From Candidatus Paceibacterota bacterium (GTDB lineage Bacteria > Patescibacteriota > Minisyncoccia > Phycocordibacterales > JAQTLZ01), in the NCBI GenBank assembly GCA_028714635.1, contig JAQTLZ010000004.1, positions 1 through 32,353 on the forward strand: a DNA stretch of 32,353 nt. The letters are read 5' to 3'. The notes below the pieces were generated by a model. That model made no database searches, was not told where the DNA came from, and saw only the letters and a list, made by a program, of their open reading frames with translations. The translations under genes and the position numbers were made by a program. This document shows, one piece after another, positions 12,182 to 25,205 of this stretch (positions are counted from its first letter, which is position 1; each line of letters begins with the position of its first letter).

Positions 12182-12485
12182 AATCCCCGTCTCTTTGCAC
12201 AGCGAAAAATTGTGCAGAGGGACGGGGATTTTTAATCCACGTGTTGCCACCCTTGTTTTGGTACGAAAAAACCGCTAGCGCGGATTTTTGTTCCACTCAT
12301 CGACTCATACGCCTTTCGGCAGACATCGATTATCCTTGTAACGGAGGAGACCGGATTTCCACTTGCGCAGAAATCATCTTTCCAGCACTTATTTTTGAGA
12401 AAAATAAGTGCTGGATGCATAGGCCCAATCCCTTAAGCCTAAGCCAAGGGACCTATACGTAGATATTGCAGTTGTAAAGAATCTA
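12182..12485 (-). promoter_or_regulatory. Trp T-box riboswitch leader of the trpBA unit
   Basis: The minus strand has the T-box AGGGTGGCAACACG (12240-12253). The antiterminator pairs AGGG with CCCT and ACG with CGT around a small GGAT/ATCC hairpin. The competing terminator has long arms (ATCCCCGTC 12183-12191, GACGGGGAT 12221-12229) and a T-run. A compact Stem I pairs GTATAGG (12452-12458) with CCTATGC (12417-12423) and CCCTT with AAGGG. Its 3' internal loop ATTGGG exposes a TGG Trp codon (12425-12427). The T-box base C fits the G73 discriminator of tRNA-Trp. A perfect 15-bp hairpin (12383-12415) sits between Stem I and the T-box. Confidence 0.9.
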
Positions 12486-16843: not shown

Positions 16844-16929
16844 TGGTGGGTAGGGTGGGATTCGAACCCACGTAGGCGTTAACCAACGGTTTTACAGACC
16901 GTCCCCTTTAGCCGCTCGGGCACCTACCC
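16844..16929 (-). tRNA. tRNA-Tyr (anticodon GTA), CCA encoded
   Basis: This is an 86-nt class II tRNA with a long variable arm. The acceptor GGGTAGG pairs with CCTACCC, the discriminator is A, and CCA is encoded. The anticodon stem ACGGT/ACCGT encloses CTGTAAA, giving anticodon GTA. The T-arm is GTGGG TTCGAAT CCCAC. It begins only 7 nt after the pheA stop, so it is probably processed from the tyrS-pheA transcript, placing the tRNA next to the gene for its own synthetase. Confidence 0.97.
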
Positions 16930-19233: not shown

Positions 19234-20328
19234 CTACTGTTGCCAGGGCGCCCAGCCGTTGGAAACTGGCTTCAAAATCTCGAAAAGCTGACCACAGAGG
19301 TCATATGTCTCGCTCTGACCGATACAAGCATCAGTGACAGAGAGACCTCGCTTGCGAGTCTGAACCGTTTCCGGTGAAGGGAAATTCTGCTTTCCCTCAT
19401 GGATGTAGCTCTCGAGCATTGCTATCCGGACGAGACCGTGCTCTGCGAATTGCCGGCCGGCGTCCAGAAAGATCGCACCCTGTTTTTTGCAGTCCTTGTT
19501 CGAATTGCCGTGAGATCCGTCAATAGCAACAGCGACATCAGGCAGGGCTTCAGAGACCAGAGCCACGTTTCCTGCATGAGAATTCGGCCCGCCATCTCCC
19601 CCGCGGAGAATGACATGCGCGTCCGAATTCCCCAAGGTTCTGACCTGCGAGTCATGGCCTTCAGGATTCGCAGCCAGAAGAGCGTGCGGCTTCCGAGCAG
19701 AACGGACAGCAGTGATTGCGTGCTTCAGCGAGCCGTCAGTGGTATTTTTCATACCCATGGGCATCGACATTCCACTTGCAAGAGCACGGCTGTCCGGAGC
19801 TTGAACCGTACGGGCGCCAATACAACCGTAGCTGTAATGGTGCGCGACGAGATTCGCGACAGTTGGACTCACAAACTCGCCGGCAAGCGGGAGCTTGGCC
19901 GAAAGTTTGAGAAGCAAATCCAGACTCATCGGAATGCCATTGACGTAATCGTACTCGCCCGTAAGGAAAGGGTCAGTAATGTAACCTTCCCATCCGCCCT
20001 CAGAGCGCGGCTTTTCCAGGTAGGTCCGCATACAGAACATAATGCGAGAACCGTACTCTTCGGTAAGTCGGAGCACAAAGTCCGAGTATTCAAAAGCTGT
20101 TTCAGGATCATCGATCGAGCAGGGCCCGAGAATGACCAGAAAAATGCTCCCTTGCTTGTGGACGATCTGTTTTATCTTCTGACGATGTCTTCTGATGGCT
20201 TCCTCTACGTGGGTTGGCGCAGCAAATTTTTCCGCCAGCTCATTTCGAGACAACAGCCGAGTGTACCCAGCGATGCGACAATCATCGAGTCTTTCATCGC
20301 CGCTGCTGCTTGTGTGAGCTCCGAGCAT
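19234..20328 (-). CDS. aroG: 3-deoxy-7-phosphoheptulonate (DAHP) synthase, AroFGH type
   Basis: DAHP synthase joins PEP and erythrose-4-phosphate in the first step of the shikimate pathway. The 364-aa class I (alpha) enzyme keeps ILGPCSIDDP with the metal-ligand Cys near residue 70. It also has MRTYLEKPR near 100, QAPDSRALASGMSMPMGMKN near 180, the metal His in DGSHGNSNKD near 275, the metal Glu in LESYIHEGKQ near 310, and the Asp in SVTDACIGQSET near 335. The SD GGAGGG precedes the ATG. Its 250-nt leader carries an aromatic attenuator. Class I alpha enzymes are the proteobacterial/yeast kind, so transfer is possible. Confidence 0.96.
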   Translation of the reverse strand: MLGAHTSSSGDERLDDCRIAGYTRLLSRNELAEKFAAPTHVEEAIRRHRQKIKQIVHKQGSIFLVILGPCSIDDPETAFEYSDFVLRLTEEYGSRIMFCMRTYLEKPRSEGGWEGYITDPFLTGEYDYVNGIPMSLDLLLKLSAKLPLAGEFVSPTVANLVAHHYSYGCIGARTVQAPDSRALASGMSMPMGMKNTTDGSLKHAITAVRSARKPHALLAANPEGHDSQVRTLGNSDAHVILRGGDGGPNSHAGNVALVSEALPDVAVAIDGSHGNSNKDCKKQGAIFLDAGRQFAEHGLVRIAMLESYIHEGKQNFPSPETVQTRKRGLSVTDACIGQSETYDLCGQLFEILKPVSNGWAPWQQ

Positions 20329-20347
20329 TGTAGTTCCCTCCGTTAGG

Positions 20348-20411
20348 TTTGCTTTTCAAAGTGTACGTAGCTTACCGCGAGCTACGCCAGAATCGGACAT
20401 TTCCGATCTGG
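20348..20411 (-). promoter_or_regulatory. Paired hairpins just upstream of the aroG ribosome-binding site
   Basis: Reading the minus strand, CCAGATCGGA…TCCGATTCTGG is followed at once by CGTAGCT…AGCTACG, two adjacent stems between the attenuator terminator and the SD. Neither has a T-tract. They may protect the 5' end of the processed mRNA or affect translation; no function is demonstrated. Confidence 0.5.
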
Positions 20412-20447
20412 AGAATGAGTATTTGGCTTAGAACACGCATTCTTCAG

Positions 20448-20530
20448 AAAAGAAAAATCCCCCGTTTTGCGGGAGATTTCTTGATTTGCTAGTTCTGTTC
20501 AGTGTTTATCGAGTAGCAACAAAATCTCCC
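20448..20530 (-). promoter_or_regulatory. Transcription attenuator of aroG (antiterminator/terminator switch)
   Basis: Segment 2, GGGAGATTT (20522-20530), lies inside codons 19-22 of the aromatic leader peptide and is a perfect complement of segment 3, AAATCTCCC (20471-20479). Segment 3 can instead pair with segment 4, CGGGGGATTT (20455-20464), as a 10-bp hairpin followed by TTTTTCTTTT. Segment 2 can also form a short 1:2 hairpin with CTCTC just upstream. A ribosome stalled on the Phe/Tyr/Trp codons would leave 2 free to pair with 3 and permit readthrough. One that reaches the stop codon (20506-20508) would cover 2 and allow the terminator. This is the standard trp/phe-type logic. Confidence 0.85.
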
Positions 20531-20586
20531 TTTTGAGAGTTAAAAAAGAAGTAAAAGAAACCCCATTTCTGTGCTGTCATGTTCAT
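20506..20586 (-). CDS. Aromatic-rich leader peptide of aroG
   Basis: This 26-codon ORF contains the run KWGFFYFFFNS: one Trp, five Phe and one Tyr codon within eight positions, plus another Phe later. ATG codons occur at positions 1 and 3. The first ATG is 6 nt after the -10 hexamer TAGACT with no SD, so the leader mRNA is probably leaderless. The ORF ends with a TAA placed so that a terminating ribosome covers the antiterminator segment. It resembles pheL/pheST leader peptides in logic, but is upstream of DAHP synthase. Confidence 0.85.
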   Translation of the reverse strand: MNMTAQKWGFFYFFFNSQKGDFVATR

Positions 20587-20592
20587 AAAATC

Positions 20593-20621
20593 AGTCTATC
20601 TCTAAGGATCTTTTTTGTCAA
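20593..20621 (-). promoter_or_regulatory. Promoter of the aroG leader
   Basis: TTGACA (20616-20621) and TAGACT (20593-20598) at exactly 17 bp on the minus strand. The predicted start site coincides with the first ATG of the leader peptide at 20586. Confidence 0.85.
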
Positions 20622-20651
20622 GACCTTAAGGGAAAGGATGATTTTCGGAAT

Positions 20652-20679
20652 AAAAAAAGTGATTGCGTTATGCAATCAC
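20652..20679 (-). terminator. Intrinsic terminator after tyrA
   Basis: On the minus strand GTGATTGC and GCAATCAC form an 8-bp stem (20659-20679) followed by seven T. It separates tyrA from the independently promoted aroG leader. Confidence 0.9.
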
Positions 20680-20687
20680 CCAAACTC

Positions 20688-21572
20688 CTATTTGAAAAGA
20701 GTTTTTGTCGAGTCGACAAACCACGCATTGATCCAATCTCTCGCTCGATCTCTTTCACAGAGAGAAATCGTGCGCACTAATTTGGATTGGGCTTTGATTT
20801 TCTTCCCAACATTTCCGAGAGACATTCCTCCCACCTCCTCGCACGCTTGATGTAGAGACAAAAGCAGACTACCCGGTGTTTCTCTCACGATTTCGTTTCG
20901 AAGCCATTCCGGAGTGCTATTTATAAGATGAAGATATGACCCGAAAATCGCGTTCGAGGCCGGTACAGCCCACTGCATAAGTTCTTCTTGCGTAGGGACA
21001 GGTCGATTGGAATCCTCGGCATACTTCTCGATAATTTTTTCAAGAACGATGGTCAACATCTCGGGGATGCTCAATGTAATTCCCATCATAAAGTCGTGTT
21101 TTCCCTCGGAACATGCAGGAAGAAATGAGATTCCCTTTTCCTTCAGGAAATTCAAGAGCATTTTCCCTCGAGGATGTTTTTCTCCTCGAGAAAGAGTTTG
21201 TATGAGAGCCCAGCGCTGGCCAATAAACGGGACTTTAGTTCCGTGCAGAGGGTGCAAAGAAAGGTGAGTTGCACCGGTCCTTGCAACAACCGCTCCCAAT
21301 CCTCTTTTAAGGGAACAAACATCTACAACCAGTTGTTCTTTCTTAAACTTCTTCTCCACGAGCAGACTTTCTATGGAAGAGCGAGGAACGCTGAGCCATA
21401 TAATATTCGCTTTCCACGTCTTTCTCCAATCGGAGCTGGTACTTTCACGATCAATTTTAATGACCGAAAATAAGGGAGAAAAAATGCTGGCTAATAGACG
21501 GCCCATATTTCCCTTAGCCCCAATAATAGCGAGAGTGGCAGATTGCTGATGTTTCTTTTTTAATCTTTTCAC
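20688..21572 (-). CDS. tyrA: Prephenate/arogenate dehydrogenase
   Basis: TyrA oxidatively decarboxylates prephenate (or arogenate) in tyrosine synthesis. The 294-aa protein begins with a basic stretch, then the NAD(P) loop IIGAKGNMGRLL (residues 16-27). Further motifs are WLSVPRSSIE near 60, the conserved LHPLHG near 108 (HPMxG family motif) and GKHDFMMGITL near 165 with the catalytic-region His-Asp. No ACT or chorismate-mutase domain is attached. The start is GTG at 21570-21572, preceded by AAAGGAG. A short Phe-codon ORF ends 13 nt upstream, suggesting coupling. Cosubstrate preference cannot be read with certainty. Confidence 0.9.
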   Translation of the reverse strand: MKRLKKKHQQSATLAIIGAKGNMGRLLASIFSPLFSVIKIDRESTSSDWRKTWKANIIWLSVPRSSIESLLVEKKFKKEQLVVDVCSLKRGLGAVVARTGATHLSLHPLHGTKVPFIGQRWALIQTLSRGEKHPRGKMLLNFLKEKGISFLPACSEGKHDFMMGITLSIPEMLTIVLEKIIEKYAEDSNRPVPTQEELMQWAVPASNAIFGSYLHLINSTPEWLRNEIVRETPGSLLLSLHQACEEVGGMSLGNVGKKIKAQSKLVRTISLCERDRARDWINAWFVDSTKTLFK

Positions 21573-21585
21573 AGCAGGACTCCTT

Positions 21586-21645
21586 TCATCTCTTCGCGGA
21601 GAAATTCCGCTTGGTTGACCTTACTTTGGCGCAAAAGAAAAACAT
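21586..21645 (-). CDS. Possible Phe-codon leader peptide of tyrA
   Basis: A 19-codon ORF begins MFFFCAK (three Phe codons directly after the ATG), has one later Phe, and ends in TGA overlapping ATGAAAGGAG, the tyrA SD region. AAAGGAAG lies just before its ATG, a little close. A small hairpin (GCGGA/TCCGC) spans its last codons, and its 3' arm includes CTCC, which could otherwise pair with GGAG of the tyrA SD. There is no terminator, so any control would be translational. The bias is suggestive but short, so chance is not excluded. Confidence 0.45.
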   Translation of the reverse strand: MFFFCAKVRSTKRNFSAKR

Positions 21646-21678
21646 CTTCCTTTGGAGGGAACTTAATTACCCGAAGGT

Positions 21679-21707
21679 AGTGTAACCTCTAGATGTATAT
21701 TTATCAA
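21679..21707 (-). promoter_or_regulatory. Promoter of tyrA
   Basis: TTGATA (21702-21707) and TACACT (21679-21684) at 17 bp on the minus strand, giving a leader of about 100 nt before tyrA. Confidence 0.72.
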
Positions 21708-21722
21708 CGTTATATTTTATAA

Positions 21723-21763
21723 GAAAAAACTCTTAGAGCGCCAATGGGAGGCATTCTAAGAGT
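21723..21763 (-). terminator. Intrinsic terminator after the 201-aa gene
   Basis: On the minus strand ACTCTTAGA and TCTAAGAGT pair (21729-21763) around a 17-nt loop and are followed by TTTTTTCTT. Confidence 0.88.
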
Positions 21764-21781
21764 ATTGCTCTGATGTCAAGA

Positions 21782-22387
21782 TCAATGATCTTGGTAAACA
21801 GCAGAAACGTAATTCGTAGTGAGGTCGTCATCGTCCGAGTAAGACCCGACTCGCCACTTTCCCCCAGCCCAGAAAAAGAAGACCTTTATGTGCTTGTCTT
21901 CTCGCGTGGCCAGGTCAGATCCGTCAAATGTGATTCGACGTGTCTTTCCTTCCCCATCACGCTCCTTCCACTCCTCCGGGATTTTGTCCTGGTTTTTGTA
22001 GAGCGAAAGGAAGGCGGAATCGCCGAGCGGTATGCCCGGATTATTCGCGAGATGCTCCTCGTCCTCTTTCACCAGACGCGCCAGAACTTCGTCCCGACGT
22101 TCCGGGTAATCTCCGATGAGCTTCATATCTTCAAGCCCAAGCCTCGCTCGCGGGCATTCTTGATTGAGGCGGTCTTGATAGACTGACCCCTTTATCGAAG
22201 ACTCATGAGGTTCGTGCACGCTGACGAGTTTGACCTTCCTTGTGTCAAAGACCTTGAGCCGTGCCGTAAGGATTTGTTCCGCTGTTTGGCACAACTCATG
22301 CCCCGTGAGAGTCTCGAGCAGCCCCATATCTTCATCGCCCTCGATGATCCTGACCATCGTGTCCTGTCCCTCGTCCTTTGGACCCAT
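21782..22387 (-). CDS. Unknown 201-aa soluble protein
   Basis: This charged, acidic-rich protein has no membrane segment, and I recognise no family. Features seen are an acidic start (IIEGDEDMGLLE), a central charged region (LARLVKEDEEHLANN), and a C-terminal part with FFFWAGGKWRVGSYSDDDDL that looks like beta-strands. Translation is well supported by AGGAGG 8 nt before the ATG, its own promoter and a terminator. It is monocistronic. It shares the strong-SD style of the aromatic and proline genes rather than the leaderless style of the cell-wall genes. Confidence 0.8.
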   Translation of the reverse strand: MGPKDEGQDTMVRIIEGDEDMGLLETLTGHELCQTAEQILTARLKVFDTRKVKLVSVHEPHESSIKGSVYQDRLNQECPRARLGLEDMKLIGDYPERRDEVLARLVKEDEEHLANNPGIPLGDSAFLSLYKNQDKIPEEWKERDGEGKTRRITFDGSDLATREDKHIKVFFFWAGGKWRVGSYSDDDDLTTNYVSAVYQDH

Positions 22388-22445
22388 GTTAAACCTCCTT
22401 CTGGTCTATGGGTTATTTCTCGGATTACGAAAGTTCCAACTCGTA

Positions 22446-22474
22446 TTAATAGTAGAATAAAACATTCCTGTCAA
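22446..22474 (-). promoter_or_regulatory. Promoter of the 201-aa gene
   Basis: TTGACA (22469-22474) and TATTAA (22446-22451) at 17 bp on the minus strand; the leader is about 50 nt and has no obvious ORF or long hairpin. Confidence 0.8.
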
Positions 22475-22490
22475 GTGCAGATCACTCTCT

Positions 22491-23207
22491 TTAAAATTTT
22501 TTCAGATAACCCATATTCAATTGTTCTTTGAGTCTTTCTTTTTGAATATTCGTTAATTTGCCAAAGAGCGAGTCGGCTATCTTTTCTGTAACGATACTTT
22601 TCGCCGCTTTTTCTGAAGCGGTTGAAATTATTTCTTGAGCTTCCACTGAAGTAACTGGCACAGTCAAATAAGCTTGTATTTTTTTACCCAAAGGTGTTTG
22701 GAGCTTCTTTCTGCGCCACTTCAGATGGTCTAAAATGTCTTTTGCTGTCCCCTCAGTAATATTTTCTGGAGAGATCTTGCCTGAATTAGTAAGCTTCCAT
22801 GTGTGGCGAATGATACCGAGAATTCCAGATTTTTCTAAAACATCAGCATCATGGACTATCTTTGCTTCAAGTGTTGTTGCCTTTCCTGTTCCTTCATGGC
22901 AAGCGACGCATTCAGAAACTTTTTCTAATTCTTCCTCCGATAAGTCTACATTTTTCAGGATATCTTTTACGATTTGTTTATTTTTCTCAGAATCGTAGTC
23001 GTTTCCTGACGGGAGGGCTGTATCATGAAGCCATGCCCCCGCCTCAACAATTGAGACATTTGCTCGTAATTTTTGAGCCATGAATTTAGCTAATTTCACA
23101 ACTCGAAAGAGATGCTTATTTCCTTTGGATTTTCCGGCAAAGGCGTCATTCCAGTCTATTTCAACGCCAAGTTTCTTTATTTGAAGCAGTGTTATTTTGT
23201 TAAGCAT
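22491..23207 (-). CDS. HD-domain phosphohydrolase
   Basis: HD proteins are metal-dependent phosphohydrolases, often acting on nucleotides. I start at the ATG at 23207 (MLNKITLL), just downstream of a good promoter, giving 238 aa; a longer frame to 23249 would extend through the promoter. Metal-binding positions are GNKHLFRVVKLAKFMA near residue 30, the HD pair in AGAWLHDTALP near 57, CHEGTG near 100, and KIVHDADVLEKSG near 112. The C-terminal half is helical and Lys-rich. No SD is present. The substrate is unknown, and it has no operon partner. Confidence 0.85.
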   Translation of the reverse strand: MLNKITLLQIKKLGVEIDWNDAFAGKSKGNKHLFRVVKLAKFMAQKLRANVSIVEAGAWLHDTALPSGNDYDSEKNKQIVKDILKNVDLSEEELEKVSECVACHEGTGKATTLEAKIVHDADVLEKSGILGIIRHTWKLTNSGKISPENITEGTAKDILDHLKWRRKKLQTPLGKKIQAYLTVPVTSVEAQEIISTASEKAAKSIVTEKIADSLFGKLTNIQKERLKEQLNMGYLKKF

Positions 23208-23228
23208 AAAAGTAATGAGATACGAGTG

Positions 23229-23257
23229 AGTATAGTATAAATGTCCCAATCTTTCAA
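23229..23257 (-). promoter_or_regulatory. Promoter of the HD-domain gene
   Basis: TTGAAA (23252-23257) and TATACT (23229-23234) at 17 bp on the minus strand. The 5' UTR would be about 15 nt to the ATG at 23207. The -35 overlaps the tail of the kinase terminator. Confidence 0.7.
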
Positions 23258-23297
23258 AGAAAAAGGGCTGGCGTCGGTTTGTGACCGAGACCAGCCC
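23256..23297 (-). terminator. Intrinsic terminator after the P-loop kinase gene
   Basis: On the minus strand GGGCTGG and CCAGCCC pair (23265-23297), with an inner TCGGT/ACCGA stem, followed by TTTTTCTTT. Confidence 0.9.
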
Positions 23298-23309
23298 AAT
23301 TGTTTCGTA

Positions 23310-23864
23310 CTAACATCTTTCCAGAATCTTTTCTACCAGAGCATCCACGTTGGCGTCATCTTCGTTGTCGATGACCAAGTGATTTTCTGCATTGGCAGGA
23401 AATTTTTCGAAAATTTCCCTGAACATAAGGTGCATATTCAAGGCTTCTGCTGTAGACAGGATGTGCGACTCTCTCTCTTGTGAGCAGAGGCGTTTCTCGA
23501 CGGTGGCGTACGGACACCGCACTTCAACCCACAGCACCTGCACGTTTTGTTTCGCGCAGAGAGCTTCCATTTGAGCACGGAGGGCGCTCAAATGAAATAC
23601 TTCATCCATTACCACAACTGATACTCCCTGATCAAAAAGACTGGACACGTATTCCAAGGCTTTTTGATAGTAACGCCAGCGGATCTCTGGTGGGTCGATT
23701 TGCTGTGCCACCAGAGCTGGGTCGACTTCGGTTCTTTTGAAATCGTCGATGTCAACAGTTCTCGCTTGGATTTTGGCGCTCACCTTTCGAGAGATTGTTG
23801 ATTTGCCCACTCCCGGCAATCCGGCGGCCAAAATCAGAACTCTTCTTATGTCCTGGTTTCCCAT
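23310..23864 (-). CDS. P-loop kinase of unknown substrate, under a Tyr-codon attenuator
   Basis: This 184-aa protein has Walker A AAGLPGVGKSTISRK (residues 13-27), a DIDDFKR acid motif near 38, a Walker B-like VVVMDE near 83, and an Arg-rich lid region. It belongs to the AAA_33/zeta-like small-molecule kinase group, similar in size to shikimate, gluconate and nucleoside kinases. It lacks the typical shikimate-kinase Gly-Gly-Gly and DSD patterns, so the substrate cannot be assigned. AAGGAG precedes the ATG. The leader encodes a Tyr-rich peptide and an attenuator, which implies a role tied to aromatic amino acids. A non-orthologous shikimate kinase is one possibility, but this is inference. Confidence 0.85.
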   Translation of the reverse strand: MGNQDIRRVLILAAGLPGVGKSTISRKVSAKIQARTVDIDDFKRTEVDPALVAQQIDPPEIRWRYYQKALEYVSSLFDQGVSVVVMDEVFHLSALRAQMEALCAKQNVQVLWVEVRCPYATVEKRLCSQERESHILSTAEALNMHLMFREIFEKFPANAENHLVIDNEDDANVDALVEKILERC

Positions 23865-23906
23865 TGCCCTGTCTCCTTATGTAATTTAATTCAGGTTGTG
23901 AAGAAC

Positions 23907-23982
23907 AAAAACTACCCCCACATGAGGGTAGTTTGAGAAGTCGATAATGTGTGATTATTCTATTCGGCGCCTTAAACTAACC
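23907..23982 (-). promoter_or_regulatory. Transcription attenuator of the P-loop kinase gene
   Basis: The terminator is AAACTACCC paired with GGGTAGTTT (23909-23934 hairpin) followed by a T-run. An upstream segment GGTTAGTTT (23974-23982) matches AAACTACCC in eight of nine positions and overlaps the last codons of the Tyr-rich leader peptide. Ribosome stalling at the Tyr codons would free this segment to block the terminator; completion of the peptide would cover it. The layout parallels aroG and proB. Confidence 0.78.
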
Positions 23983-24052
23983 TCTGTGAGATGTGAGCAT
24001 AATAACAATAATAAGCAGTAGTTTTAGATACTGTAGAAGTCTTATTTTGCAT
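23972..24052 (-). CDS. Tyr-rich leader peptide of the P-loop kinase gene
   Basis: A 26-codon ORF contains AYYCYYA (codons TAT TAT TGT TAT TAT): four Tyr codons in five, seven codons before the antiterminator segment. An earlier in-frame ATG at 24073 lies within the proposed -10, so I prefer 24052, about 10 nt after the predicted start site. There is no SD. The stop TAA (23972-23974) abuts the antiterminator segment. Confidence 0.75.
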   Translation of the reverse strand: MQNKTSTVSKTTAYYCYYAHISQRLV

Positions 24053-24068
24053 TCTTTTATTGTTTGAA

Positions 24069-24096
24069 TTCATATACGAATACTTACTTATGACAA
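24069..24096 (-). promoter_or_regulatory. Probable promoter of the kinase leader
   Basis: TTGTCA (24091-24096) and TATGAA (24069-24074) at 16 bp on the minus strand. It is weaker than the aroG and proB promoters but correctly placed for the Tyr-rich leader peptide. It fires away from the proB promoter 50 bp further on. Confidence 0.55.
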
Positions 24097-24146
24097 GCCT
24101 ACCATGTTCAGTTTTTTGGGTCAATGCATTGGACTAGTACAACAGA

Positions 24147-24175
24147 TTGACATAAAATCGGCATACTGCTAGCAT
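24147..24175 (+). promoter_or_regulatory. Promoter of the proB leader
   Basis: TTGACA (24147-24152) and TAGCAT (24170-24175) at exactly 17 bp. The first ATG of the leader ORF is at 24183, 7 nt after the -10, so the transcript probably begins at or within a few bases of that codon. Confidence 0.85.
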
Positions 24176-24182
24176 TCAAATT

Positions 24183-24266
24183 ATGAATTTCATAGCGAAA
24201 TCCATGTCTGTAAATATCCCGTCACCCGCACCCAGAAACCCCATGAAATGCGGCTTTTCGTTATAA
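24183..24266 (+). CDS. Pro-rich leader peptide of proB
   Basis: A 27-codon ORF from the ATG at 24183, or 20 codons from an in-frame ATG at 24204. It contains IPSPAPRNP: four Pro codons (CCG, CCC, CCC, CCC) in nine positions. No SD is visible, and the upstream ATG fits a leaderless start. The codons after the Pro run (MKCGFSL) form the antiterminator segment, and the TAA is at 24264-24266. The amino acid matches the product pathway of proB, as expected for ribosome-mediated attenuation. Confidence 0.82.
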   Translation: MNFIAKSMSVNIPSPAPRNPMKCGFSL

Positions 24267-24329
24267 GAATCTATCAAAACTATTCAATCGAGAAACCGCC
24301 TTCATGGAACGAGAAGGTGGTTTTCTTTC
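24243..24329 (+). promoter_or_regulatory. Transcription attenuator of proB
   Basis: The terminator pairs AAACCGCCTTC (24293-24303) with GAAGGTGGTTT (24313-24323), 11 bp with one G-U pair, followed by TCTTT. The leader segment at 24243-24260 (ATGAA…GCGG…TTT…TCG) complements 24289-24305 over most of its length with small bulges, an antiterminator. It overlaps the last codons of the Pro-rich leader, so stalled and completed translation would give opposite folds. Downstream, CCAGGGTGCCCTGG (24374-24387) forms another small hairpin before the SD. Confidence 0.8.
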
Positions 24330-24440
24330 CGCCTTCTCCCCTGACGAGAGGGTCTCGATTCTAGATTTTCTCGCCAGGGTGCCCTGGATTTCGCCCTTGC
24401 GAAAATGTCCTTTTAAAACTGAAAAACGGAGGAACAAGCC

Positions 24441-25205
24441 ATGCGCCCAATCGTGAAGCGAGTCGTGATCAAGTTTGGCACTGAAGTCCTTTTGACCGAA
24501 AATCATCTCGATCAAAAAATTTTTGATAATGTTGCCTTGCAGGTGAGGCAAATTCAAGAACTTGGCGTTGATGTGGTGATCGTGACGTCCGGCGCAATCA
24601 AGGCCGGAAAGGAAAAACGGACGAGAAGCAGGAAATTTGTTGAAGGTATACCAGAATCAATTCTGGCGGGAACGGGCAATCTGCCCTTGCTTATTATGTG
24701 GAGCAATGCATTTGAGCCGGATCAAGAGATCGCCCAGATTTTGGTAACACATGCGAATCTGGGAGACGAACATGAAAAAAATGCCACTCGTTCGGTGATT
24801 CTCGCGGCGCCGTCTTTATCTGTTGTTCCTGTCATAAATGCGAACGATATCGTCTCCGACGAAGAGAGAAAAGGCATCAGCGAAAATGATCAGCTCGCAT
24901 GTCTGGTTGCCGAACTTATCGATGCCGACGGAATTCTCTTTTTGACGAGTTGCGGGGGTGTTTATAAAGACAGCCCAGGCAATCTTTATAAAGAGATTGA
25001 TATTCCGACTGCGAAACTCATTGCTTCTGCCTCACGGTCAAAGTCGACAAACGGGCGAGGCGGGATGAGTGCAAAGTTGGATTCAGCGATTGTGTGCAGA
25101 GAGGGAGGGATGCATACGGTCATTGCTGGACTCGGTGAAGATACTATTCTACGCTTCGCGACTGGACGGGATGTTGGTACTCGTATTGGCTTTTCCGTCC
25201 GCTGA
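24441..25205 (+). CDS. proB: Glutamate 5-kinase, short form without PUA domain
   Basis: ProB phosphorylates glutamate to gamma-glutamyl phosphate, the first step of proline synthesis. The amino-acid-kinase fold shows VVIKFGTEVL (residues 8-17), VTSGAIKAG near 48, NANDIVSDEE and GISENDQLACLVAELIDADG near 133-160, and GRGGMSAKLDSA near 205. At 254 aa it lacks the C-terminal PUA domain of the E. coli enzyme. A good SD (GGAGGA) precedes the ATG. proA and proC are not in the window. Other amino-acid kinases (aspartate, acetylglutamate) are alternatives, but the motifs and the Pro-codon leader favour ProB. Confidence 0.92.
   Translation: MRPIVKRVVIKFGTEVLLTENHLDQKIFDNVALQVRQIQELGVDVVIVTSGAIKAGKEKRTRSRKFVEGIPESILAGTGNLPLLIMWSNAFEPDQEIAQILVTHANLGDEHEKNATRSVILAAPSLSVVPVINANDIVSDEERKGISENDQLACLVAELIDADGILFLTSCGGVYKDSPGNLYKEIDIPTAKLIASASRSKSTNGRGGMSAKLDSAIVCREGGMHTVIAGLGEDTILRFATGRDVGTRIGFSVR

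Follow-up and report, generated by a model that had tools for sequence, protein, structure and literature searches.

The window, a stretch of 32,353 nucleotides from a Candidatus Paceibacterota bacterium, contains two kinase genes that diverge from an intergenic gap of 576 nt (23865-24440). A P-loop kinase gene starts at 23864 on the minus strand, and a gene for a ProB-like amino-acid kinase starts at 24441 on the plus strand (Table 1). The minus-strand half of the gap carries a short ORF whose peptide has the core AYYCYYAH (the Tyr leader), and a terminator hairpin begins 36 nt past its stop codon. The plus-strand half carries a short ORF with the peptide core NIPSPAPRNP (the Pro leader), and its terminator begins 23 nt past the stop codon. 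Since the genes diverge and neither strand has an upstream gene that needs a terminator, both hairpins sit in 5' leaders. The original prediction had placed a leader with its terminator on each strand and an antiterminator at the end of each leader ORF, and all of these parts were recovered.

Both elements thus have the same three components, namely a short leader ORF enriched in one amino acid (YYCYY or PSPAPRNP), an intrinsic terminator before the gene, and a competing antiterminator. The Tyr antiterminator starts 13 nt past the final Tyr codon; its duplex with the 5' arm of the terminator has an energy of -11.7 kcal/mol (p=0.004). The Pro antiterminator starts 6 nt past the fourth Pro codon and 15 nt past the third, and the corresponding duplex has an energy of -11.5 kcal/mol (p=0.006; both p-values against mononucleotide shuffles). 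The two promoters had been expected about 50 bp apart. The plus-strand promoter is clear, the minus-strand one is weak with two options, and the spacing is therefore only approximate.

Table 1. Features of the divergent region and of the Phe leader region in the window
Feature	Coordinates	Strand	Remarks
ProB-like amino-acid kinase, 254 aa	24441..25205	plus	no PUA domain; relative of glutamate 5-kinase
Pro leader intrinsic terminator	24290-24324	plus	stem-loop then CTTTC; -16.1
Pro antiterminator segment TGCGGCTTTTCG	24249-24260	plus	in the last codons of the leader; pairs with terminator 5' arm
Four Pro codons (CCG, CCC, CCC, CCC)	24219..24242	plus	Pro core kept in 12 loci
Pro leader ORF MNFIAKSMSVNIPSPAPRNPMKCGFSL	24183-24266	plus	probably leaderless; homologues known
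Pro leader promoter TTGACA-17-TAGCAT	24147..24175	plus	10 of 12; 7 nt before leader ATG, position p=0.004
Candidate Tyr leader promoter TTGACC-17-TAGGCT	24124-24096	minus	weak
Alternative Tyr leader promoter TTGTCA-16-TATGAA	24096-24069	minus	weak; alternative to the 24124-24096 site
Tyr leader ORF MNSNNKRMQNKTSTVSKTTAYYCYYAHISQRLV	24073-23972	minus	alternative start 24052; homologue in L144
Tyr-Tyr-Cys-Tyr-Tyr codons	23999..24013	minus	Tyr run kept in L144, Cys replaced
Tyr antiterminator segment AGAGGTTAGTTTA	23985-23973	minus	overlaps leader stop codon
Tyr leader intrinsic terminator	23935-23903	minus	-15.2; compensatory changes in L144
P-loop kinase (AAA_33)	23310..23864	minus	own terminator 23299-23260
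Phe leader promoter	20621-20593	minus	ahead of Phe leader ORF
Phe leader ORF MNMTAQKWGFFYFFFNSQKGDFVATR (FFYFFF)	20586-20506	minus	third attenuator of the window
Phe antiterminator	20531-20520	minus	within the Phe leader region
Phe leader terminator	20481-20453	minus	before DAHP synthase
DAHP synthase	20328-19234	minus	downstream of Phe leader

Recurrence of the two leaders in relatives

The kinase under the Tyr leader has a single clear homologue among 297 genomes of the order. This homologue is encoded in genome G064, which belongs to another family, and shares 49% identity with the window protein; the neighbouring HD-domain protein is also conserved (54%). The G064 locus (L144) contains a Tyr leader, MSSKFSNLNKRHDSASAAYYYYSAHLPIRLVSRCRNNSNNS, which includes MSSKFSNLNKRHDSASAAYYYYSAHLPIRLV and reads AYYYYSAH in place of AYYCYYAH. 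The Tyr run and the downstream AH..RLV are kept, and the Cys is lost. In the L144 terminator, two pairs are changed on both sides and one wobble has become a standard pair. The antiterminator has changed along with the terminator and pairs fully. The promoter of this leader (TTGACA-16-TATCCT) is followed by the ATG 6 nt downstream. The leader stop codon in L144 lies beyond the antiterminator, so occlusion there would occur in passing and not at the stop. This comparison comprises two copies, the window and one homologue, and a DNA search with the Tyr leader gave no match in genomes of the same genus.

The Pro leader is more widespread. A short leader with a Pro core (mostly VPP; Pro-Pro or PSP), a terminator and an antiterminator is found at 12 of the 29 proB-like loci of the order that have upstream DNA, and the antiterminator is better than shuffles (p<0.05) in ten of these 12. 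Examples of the leaders are MKAIGITINIVPPAPIN, MTFRIATVTVVPPAPINLRG, MVKMTTYTHNLPSPTPDLMLRRVF, MQKFQTVNVVPPQTAL and MKSRNKYSNIVPPPSPNP. The third positions of the Val and Pro codons vary synonymously with the residues held constant. A thirteenth Pro leader of the order is probably present in G347 (L026), where an uncurated scan matched a terminator and an out-of-frame ORF. Outside the order, one further candidate was found in G531 (IAPTPPVTGC). A scan with a proB alignment returned loci mostly from other phyla, and 77 of these served as a control; L064 alone among them had a convincing Pro leader, and this locus and G286 are apparently one contig. A Pro leader candidate from Chlorobiaceae (L097) was rejected, as the match lies inside a broken transporter-like gene with intact counterparts in L137 and L143.

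These homologues bear on the possibility that the Tyr and Pro runs arose by chance in an AT-rich or C-rich spacer and that the hairpins act as common terminators or belong to RNA switches of another kind. Tyr runs arise easily from TAT-rich DNA, and two copies are all that back the Tyr case. However, the Tyr run, the AH..RLV and the terminator have persisted, with compensatory changes in the stem, at loci whose proteins are 49% identical, the Pro core is retained in 12 loci, and the divergent layout gives the terminators no upstream gene to serve. Chance is highly improbable as an explanation, in agreement with the original prediction, and at the level of sequence it is already largely refuted by the homologues. 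The outcome feared there, conserved stems with lost codon runs, was not seen; the opposite was found, with the Tyr run and the Pro cores both kept.

The two leaders do not travel together. G064 has the Tyr leader and the kinase with no detected match to proB, and a dozen genomes that lack the kinase carry the Pro leader ahead of a proB-like gene, next to unrelated upstream neighbours. G001 and G002, which belong to the same genus as the window, have neither the kinase nor the divergent layout. Because each attenuator is found without the other and the layout is missing from the same genus, the two switches are separate systems that are neighbours by chance in the window. The search for the same layout in relatives, proposed earlier, therefore found no conservation, and the suggestion of one shared divergent control region was dropped. 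A coupled regulatory unit, with a shared promoter region or cross-talk between Tyr and Pro, would fit the back-to-back candidate promoters, whose -35 boxes are about 22 bp apart if the 24124-24096 site is used. Against the independent distribution just described, including the differing upstream genes at the other leader-bearing loci, such a unit is very unlikely.

Probable attenuation by leader-peptide translation

We conclude with considerable confidence that the gap contains two ribosome-mediated transcription attenuators, one in each half, which act through their leader peptides. In the proposed mechanism, RNA polymerase would transcribe the leader ORF with a ribosome trailing it. When charged tRNA-Tyr (or tRNA-Pro) is ample, the ribosome would reach the leader stop and mask the antiterminator, which overlaps this codon or lies next to it. 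Formation of the terminator hairpin would follow, and transcription would end without reaching the kinase gene (or the proB-like gene). Under shortage of the amino acid, the ribosome would stall at its Tyr (or Pro) codons, which precede the antiterminator by about 6-17 nt. The antiterminator, left free, would pair with the 5' arm of the terminator and so allow transcription of the downstream gene. By this geometry, a ribosome at the Tyr codons or at the first three Pro codons would leave the antiterminator free, and a ribosome at the stop would cover it.

The pairing was examined in 21 curated loci. The antiterminator is better than shuffles (p<0.05) in 19 of them and no better in L002 and L025; these p-values are optimistic, as the shuffles were single-base and the loci were chosen by eye before testing. 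The antiterminator starts 4-18 nt past a regulatory codon. Among 17 representative loci, antiterminators pair with their own terminators at a mean of -11.9 kcal/mol compared with -7.4 kcal/mol for swapped partners, and none of 20,000 permutations reached the mean of the matched pairs. This swap test, the mutually exclusive pairing and the homologues uphold the prediction of two independent codon-biased attenuators.

Modelled ribosome positions give a similar picture. A ribosome placed on the stop codon lets the terminator form in all 21 loci. When the ribosome is placed on the regulatory codons, all 21 leaders can adopt an upstream fold (-7 to -26 kcal/mol) while the 3' arm has yet to be transcribed. 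The terminator is still part of the final minimum-energy structure in about half of the loci despite the stalled ribosome, and the window Pro leader is among these (-19.2). Antitermination in the window Pro leader must therefore rest on the order of folding, that is, on kinetics. Known attenuators likewise switch kinetically.

The enriched residue matches the pathway of the downstream gene where the Pro leader heads proBA or proBCA (G263 and G352) and where Phe leaders precede DAHP synthase or the operon that includes a tyrA-pheA fusion. Pro at the orphan ProB-like gene and Tyr at the kinase pair may fit likewise. For the Pro leader, a different signal can be considered, in which the formation of the Pro-Pro peptide bond (through EF-P availability or an arrest peptide) is sensed instead of tRNA-Pro charging. 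The residues of the core [IV]-V-P-P are conserved, and its Val and Pro codons differ in their third bases; often just two Pro codons are present, and the f62 leaders carry just PP, in NVVPPxTAL. However, the window leader and L002 read PSP[AT]P without Pro-Pro. Furthermore, Salmonella mgtP answers low charged tRNA-Pro by attenuation, and two adjacent Pro codons are necessary and possibly sufficient for this response even when the rest of the ORF is scrambled (PMC3641672). By this precedent, plain charging can explain leaders with two Pro codons, and we consider Pro-Pro sensing unlikely. Sensing of tRNA-Pro charging is likened to mgtP by analogy.

In most leaders, translation probably begins at the 5' terminus of the RNA or immediately beside it. 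About 17 of the 21 leaders have a sigma-70-like promoter (score 8-12 of 12) whose end lies 6-8 nt upstream of the start codon of the leader, and a Shine-Dalgarno-like sequence was found at none of the 21 starts. The Pro leader ORF in the window starts 7 nt past the -10 box without a Shine-Dalgarno sequence. This spacing and the missing Shine-Dalgarno sequence are the reasons for regarding the ORFs as leaderless. The window Tyr leader, with its weak promoter, is among the exceptions to the spacing pattern.

Leaderless leader-peptide attenuators are found in actinobacteria and Sinorhizobium, as in S. meliloti trpL and the mycobacterial cysteine leaders, where the ORF lies at the 5' end of the transcript without a Shine-Dalgarno sequence. 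The leaders described here share these properties, with their starts placed by promoter spacing, and differ in phylum and amino acid. With the attenuators of trpL, hisL, pheL, ilv, leu and thr they share a run of amino-acid codons in a short ORF, an intrinsic terminator, an exclusive antiterminator and the ribosome-footprint geometry. They differ in having a single antiterminator within or abutting the leader end, with no four-segment scheme, which makes the design simpler than that of E. coli trp and his. They also differ in being mostly apparently leaderless, in responding to Tyr and Pro, and in belonging to another phylum. The Salmonella mgtP/mgtL leaders similarly contain Pro codons in a short ORF; those control Mg2+ transport genes, whereas the genes here are a proB-like gene, proBA or proBCA.

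According to a survey in 2010, leader-peptide attenuators were known only from Proteobacteria and Actinobacteria, and the survey added Firmicutes (PMC2965389). In the open-access literature that was searched, we found no paper on leader-peptide attenuation or T-boxes in Patescibacteria, nor on tyrosine codons in an attenuating leader peptide. The Tyr-specific and proB-specific leader peptides and the leaderless design are thus apparently described for the first time in Patescibacteria.

Kinases under the putative control of the leaders

The ProB-like kinase is an orphan in the window's genome, a status that the original prediction did not recognize. The protein matches a solved glutamate 5-kinase with E=2e-30. 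Against the glutamate 5-kinase model TIGR01027, it scores 143.4 bits, below the cut-off of 186. Two leader-bearing orphans score just above the cut-off (194.7 and 187.5) and five others tested score below it. The residues that we take to be catalytic in E. coli ProB look conserved in the ProB-like orphan. ProA and ProC gave no match in the window's genome and eight other leader-bearing genomes, save one sub-threshold ProC (G130); the same search found its target in 14 of 14 reference genomes. ProA was likewise not found in G347, G394 and G531. Within the order, 11 of the 13 leader-bearing genomes tested gave no match to ProA, and the short ProB-like kinase without ProA is present in at least 11 genomes. 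The exceptions are G263, where the Pro leader heads proBA, and G352, where it heads proBCA. The Pro leader family is thus linked to proline synthesis in these two genomes and, in all the others, to an orphan ProB-like kinase.

The P-loop kinase is less easily assigned. Its best match among solved structures is L-seryl-tRNA(Sec) kinase (E=0.003). In a protein scan, it reached 23.7 bits against the shikimate kinase family PF01202 (cut-off 22.1), with AAA_33 scoring far higher. Identity as a shikimate kinase was set aside as unlikely, since a genome search matched the P-loop stretch alone (17.7 bits). The gene is monocistronic because its terminator lies directly 3' of it. An operon with the downstream tyrA was also rejected on account of this terminator and of more promoters and terminators in between. 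The interval from the kinase to the HD-domain gene contains a similar hairpin in the window (the hairpin at 23299-23260) and in L144 (GGGCTGG...CCAGCCC; GGGCTGGCC...GCCAGTCCC), with a T tract in the window only. In L147 and L148, a long hairpin (AAACCATAAGTAAAACAAA...TTTGTTTCRCTTATGGTTT) followed by T is located about 75 nt upstream of distant kinase homologues and resembles a mobile repeat or a terminator.

We tentatively suggest, with somewhat less than even confidence, that the leader-peptide attenuators here control kinases outside the biosynthesis of the sensed amino acid. The ProB-like kinase (Pro shortage, no ProA or ProC) and the P-loop kinase (Tyr shortage) would then be starvation-induced enzymes switched on through leaderless leader peptides. 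If so, their products might be gamma-glutamyl phosphate or another phosphorylated compound, for scavenging or signalling. The Pro leaders offer a handle on the orphan ProB-like kinase, because the switch names the shortage that is answered.

Putative amino-acid switches of the aromatic pathway

The window contains further switches that were absent from the original prediction. A third attenuator, with a Phe-rich leader, precedes the DAHP synthase gene (Table 1), and a Phe-rich leader is found ahead of eight of 15 sampled DAHP synthase loci of the order. The element at 20577-20449 on the minus strand shares its layout and codon content with the Rfam family Phe_leader (RF01859) and likewise has an aromatic-pathway gene downstream; its score of 27.7 bits, where the gathering score is 55, leaves it outside the family by the Rfam standard. 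A second Phe attenuator is present elsewhere in the window's genome (MSMLADKFFHFFYFSR; G000:C1, about 228,500, L059) and in G002 (MNMLADKFFNFFYFSR; G002:C17, L047). It heads an operon encoding a TyrA-PheA fusion as well as an aminotransferase, and has the antiterminator GGGAGATTTTG in common with the DAHP synthase leader of the window.

The trpB leader (12215-12421, minus strand) is of another type. It matches the T-box family RF00230 with E=5e-5 (in a search of 901 bases) and 31 bits, under the gathering score of 93. It has an AGGGTGG...CG antiterminator motif and a strong terminator, and lies upstream of a small ORF and trpB-trpA-trpS. This T-box-like leader is plausibly a sensor of Trp. Its presence in the same window raises the question of whether the Tyr and Pro leader RNAs bind a ligand or tRNA directly, as in a T-box or riboswitch, with the short ORFs being incidental. 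In contrast to the trpB leader, the region 20300-24500 gave no T-box or riboswitch match even at permissive thresholds. No Rfam family matches the Tyr or the Pro element, and RF00230 matches neither. Furthermore, what is conserved are the codons of the leader ORFs and no fixed fold. Direct binding is extremely improbable, and attenuation through the leader peptides is retained for both elements.

Bacteria with genomes this small are regarded as having little regulation and as living at the expense of other cells. The sampled genomes of the phylum are 0.5-2.0 Mb in size and contain bacterial cell-wall genes. With Phe, Tyr and Pro attenuators and a T-box-like trpB leader in one 32-kb stretch, individual amino acids would be sensed by translation.

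Two other features of the aromatic genes can be mentioned. Just 5' of tyrA, at 21645-21586 on the minus strand, a short ORF (MFFFCAKVRSTKRNFSAKR) overlaps a small GC hairpin that no T tract follows; this ORF is possibly another leader, perhaps one acting on translation. The gene run DAHP synthase-tyrS-pheA is immediately followed by a tRNA-Tyr gene (16844-16929, minus strand), which places genes for the supply and charging of tyrosine in one cluster.
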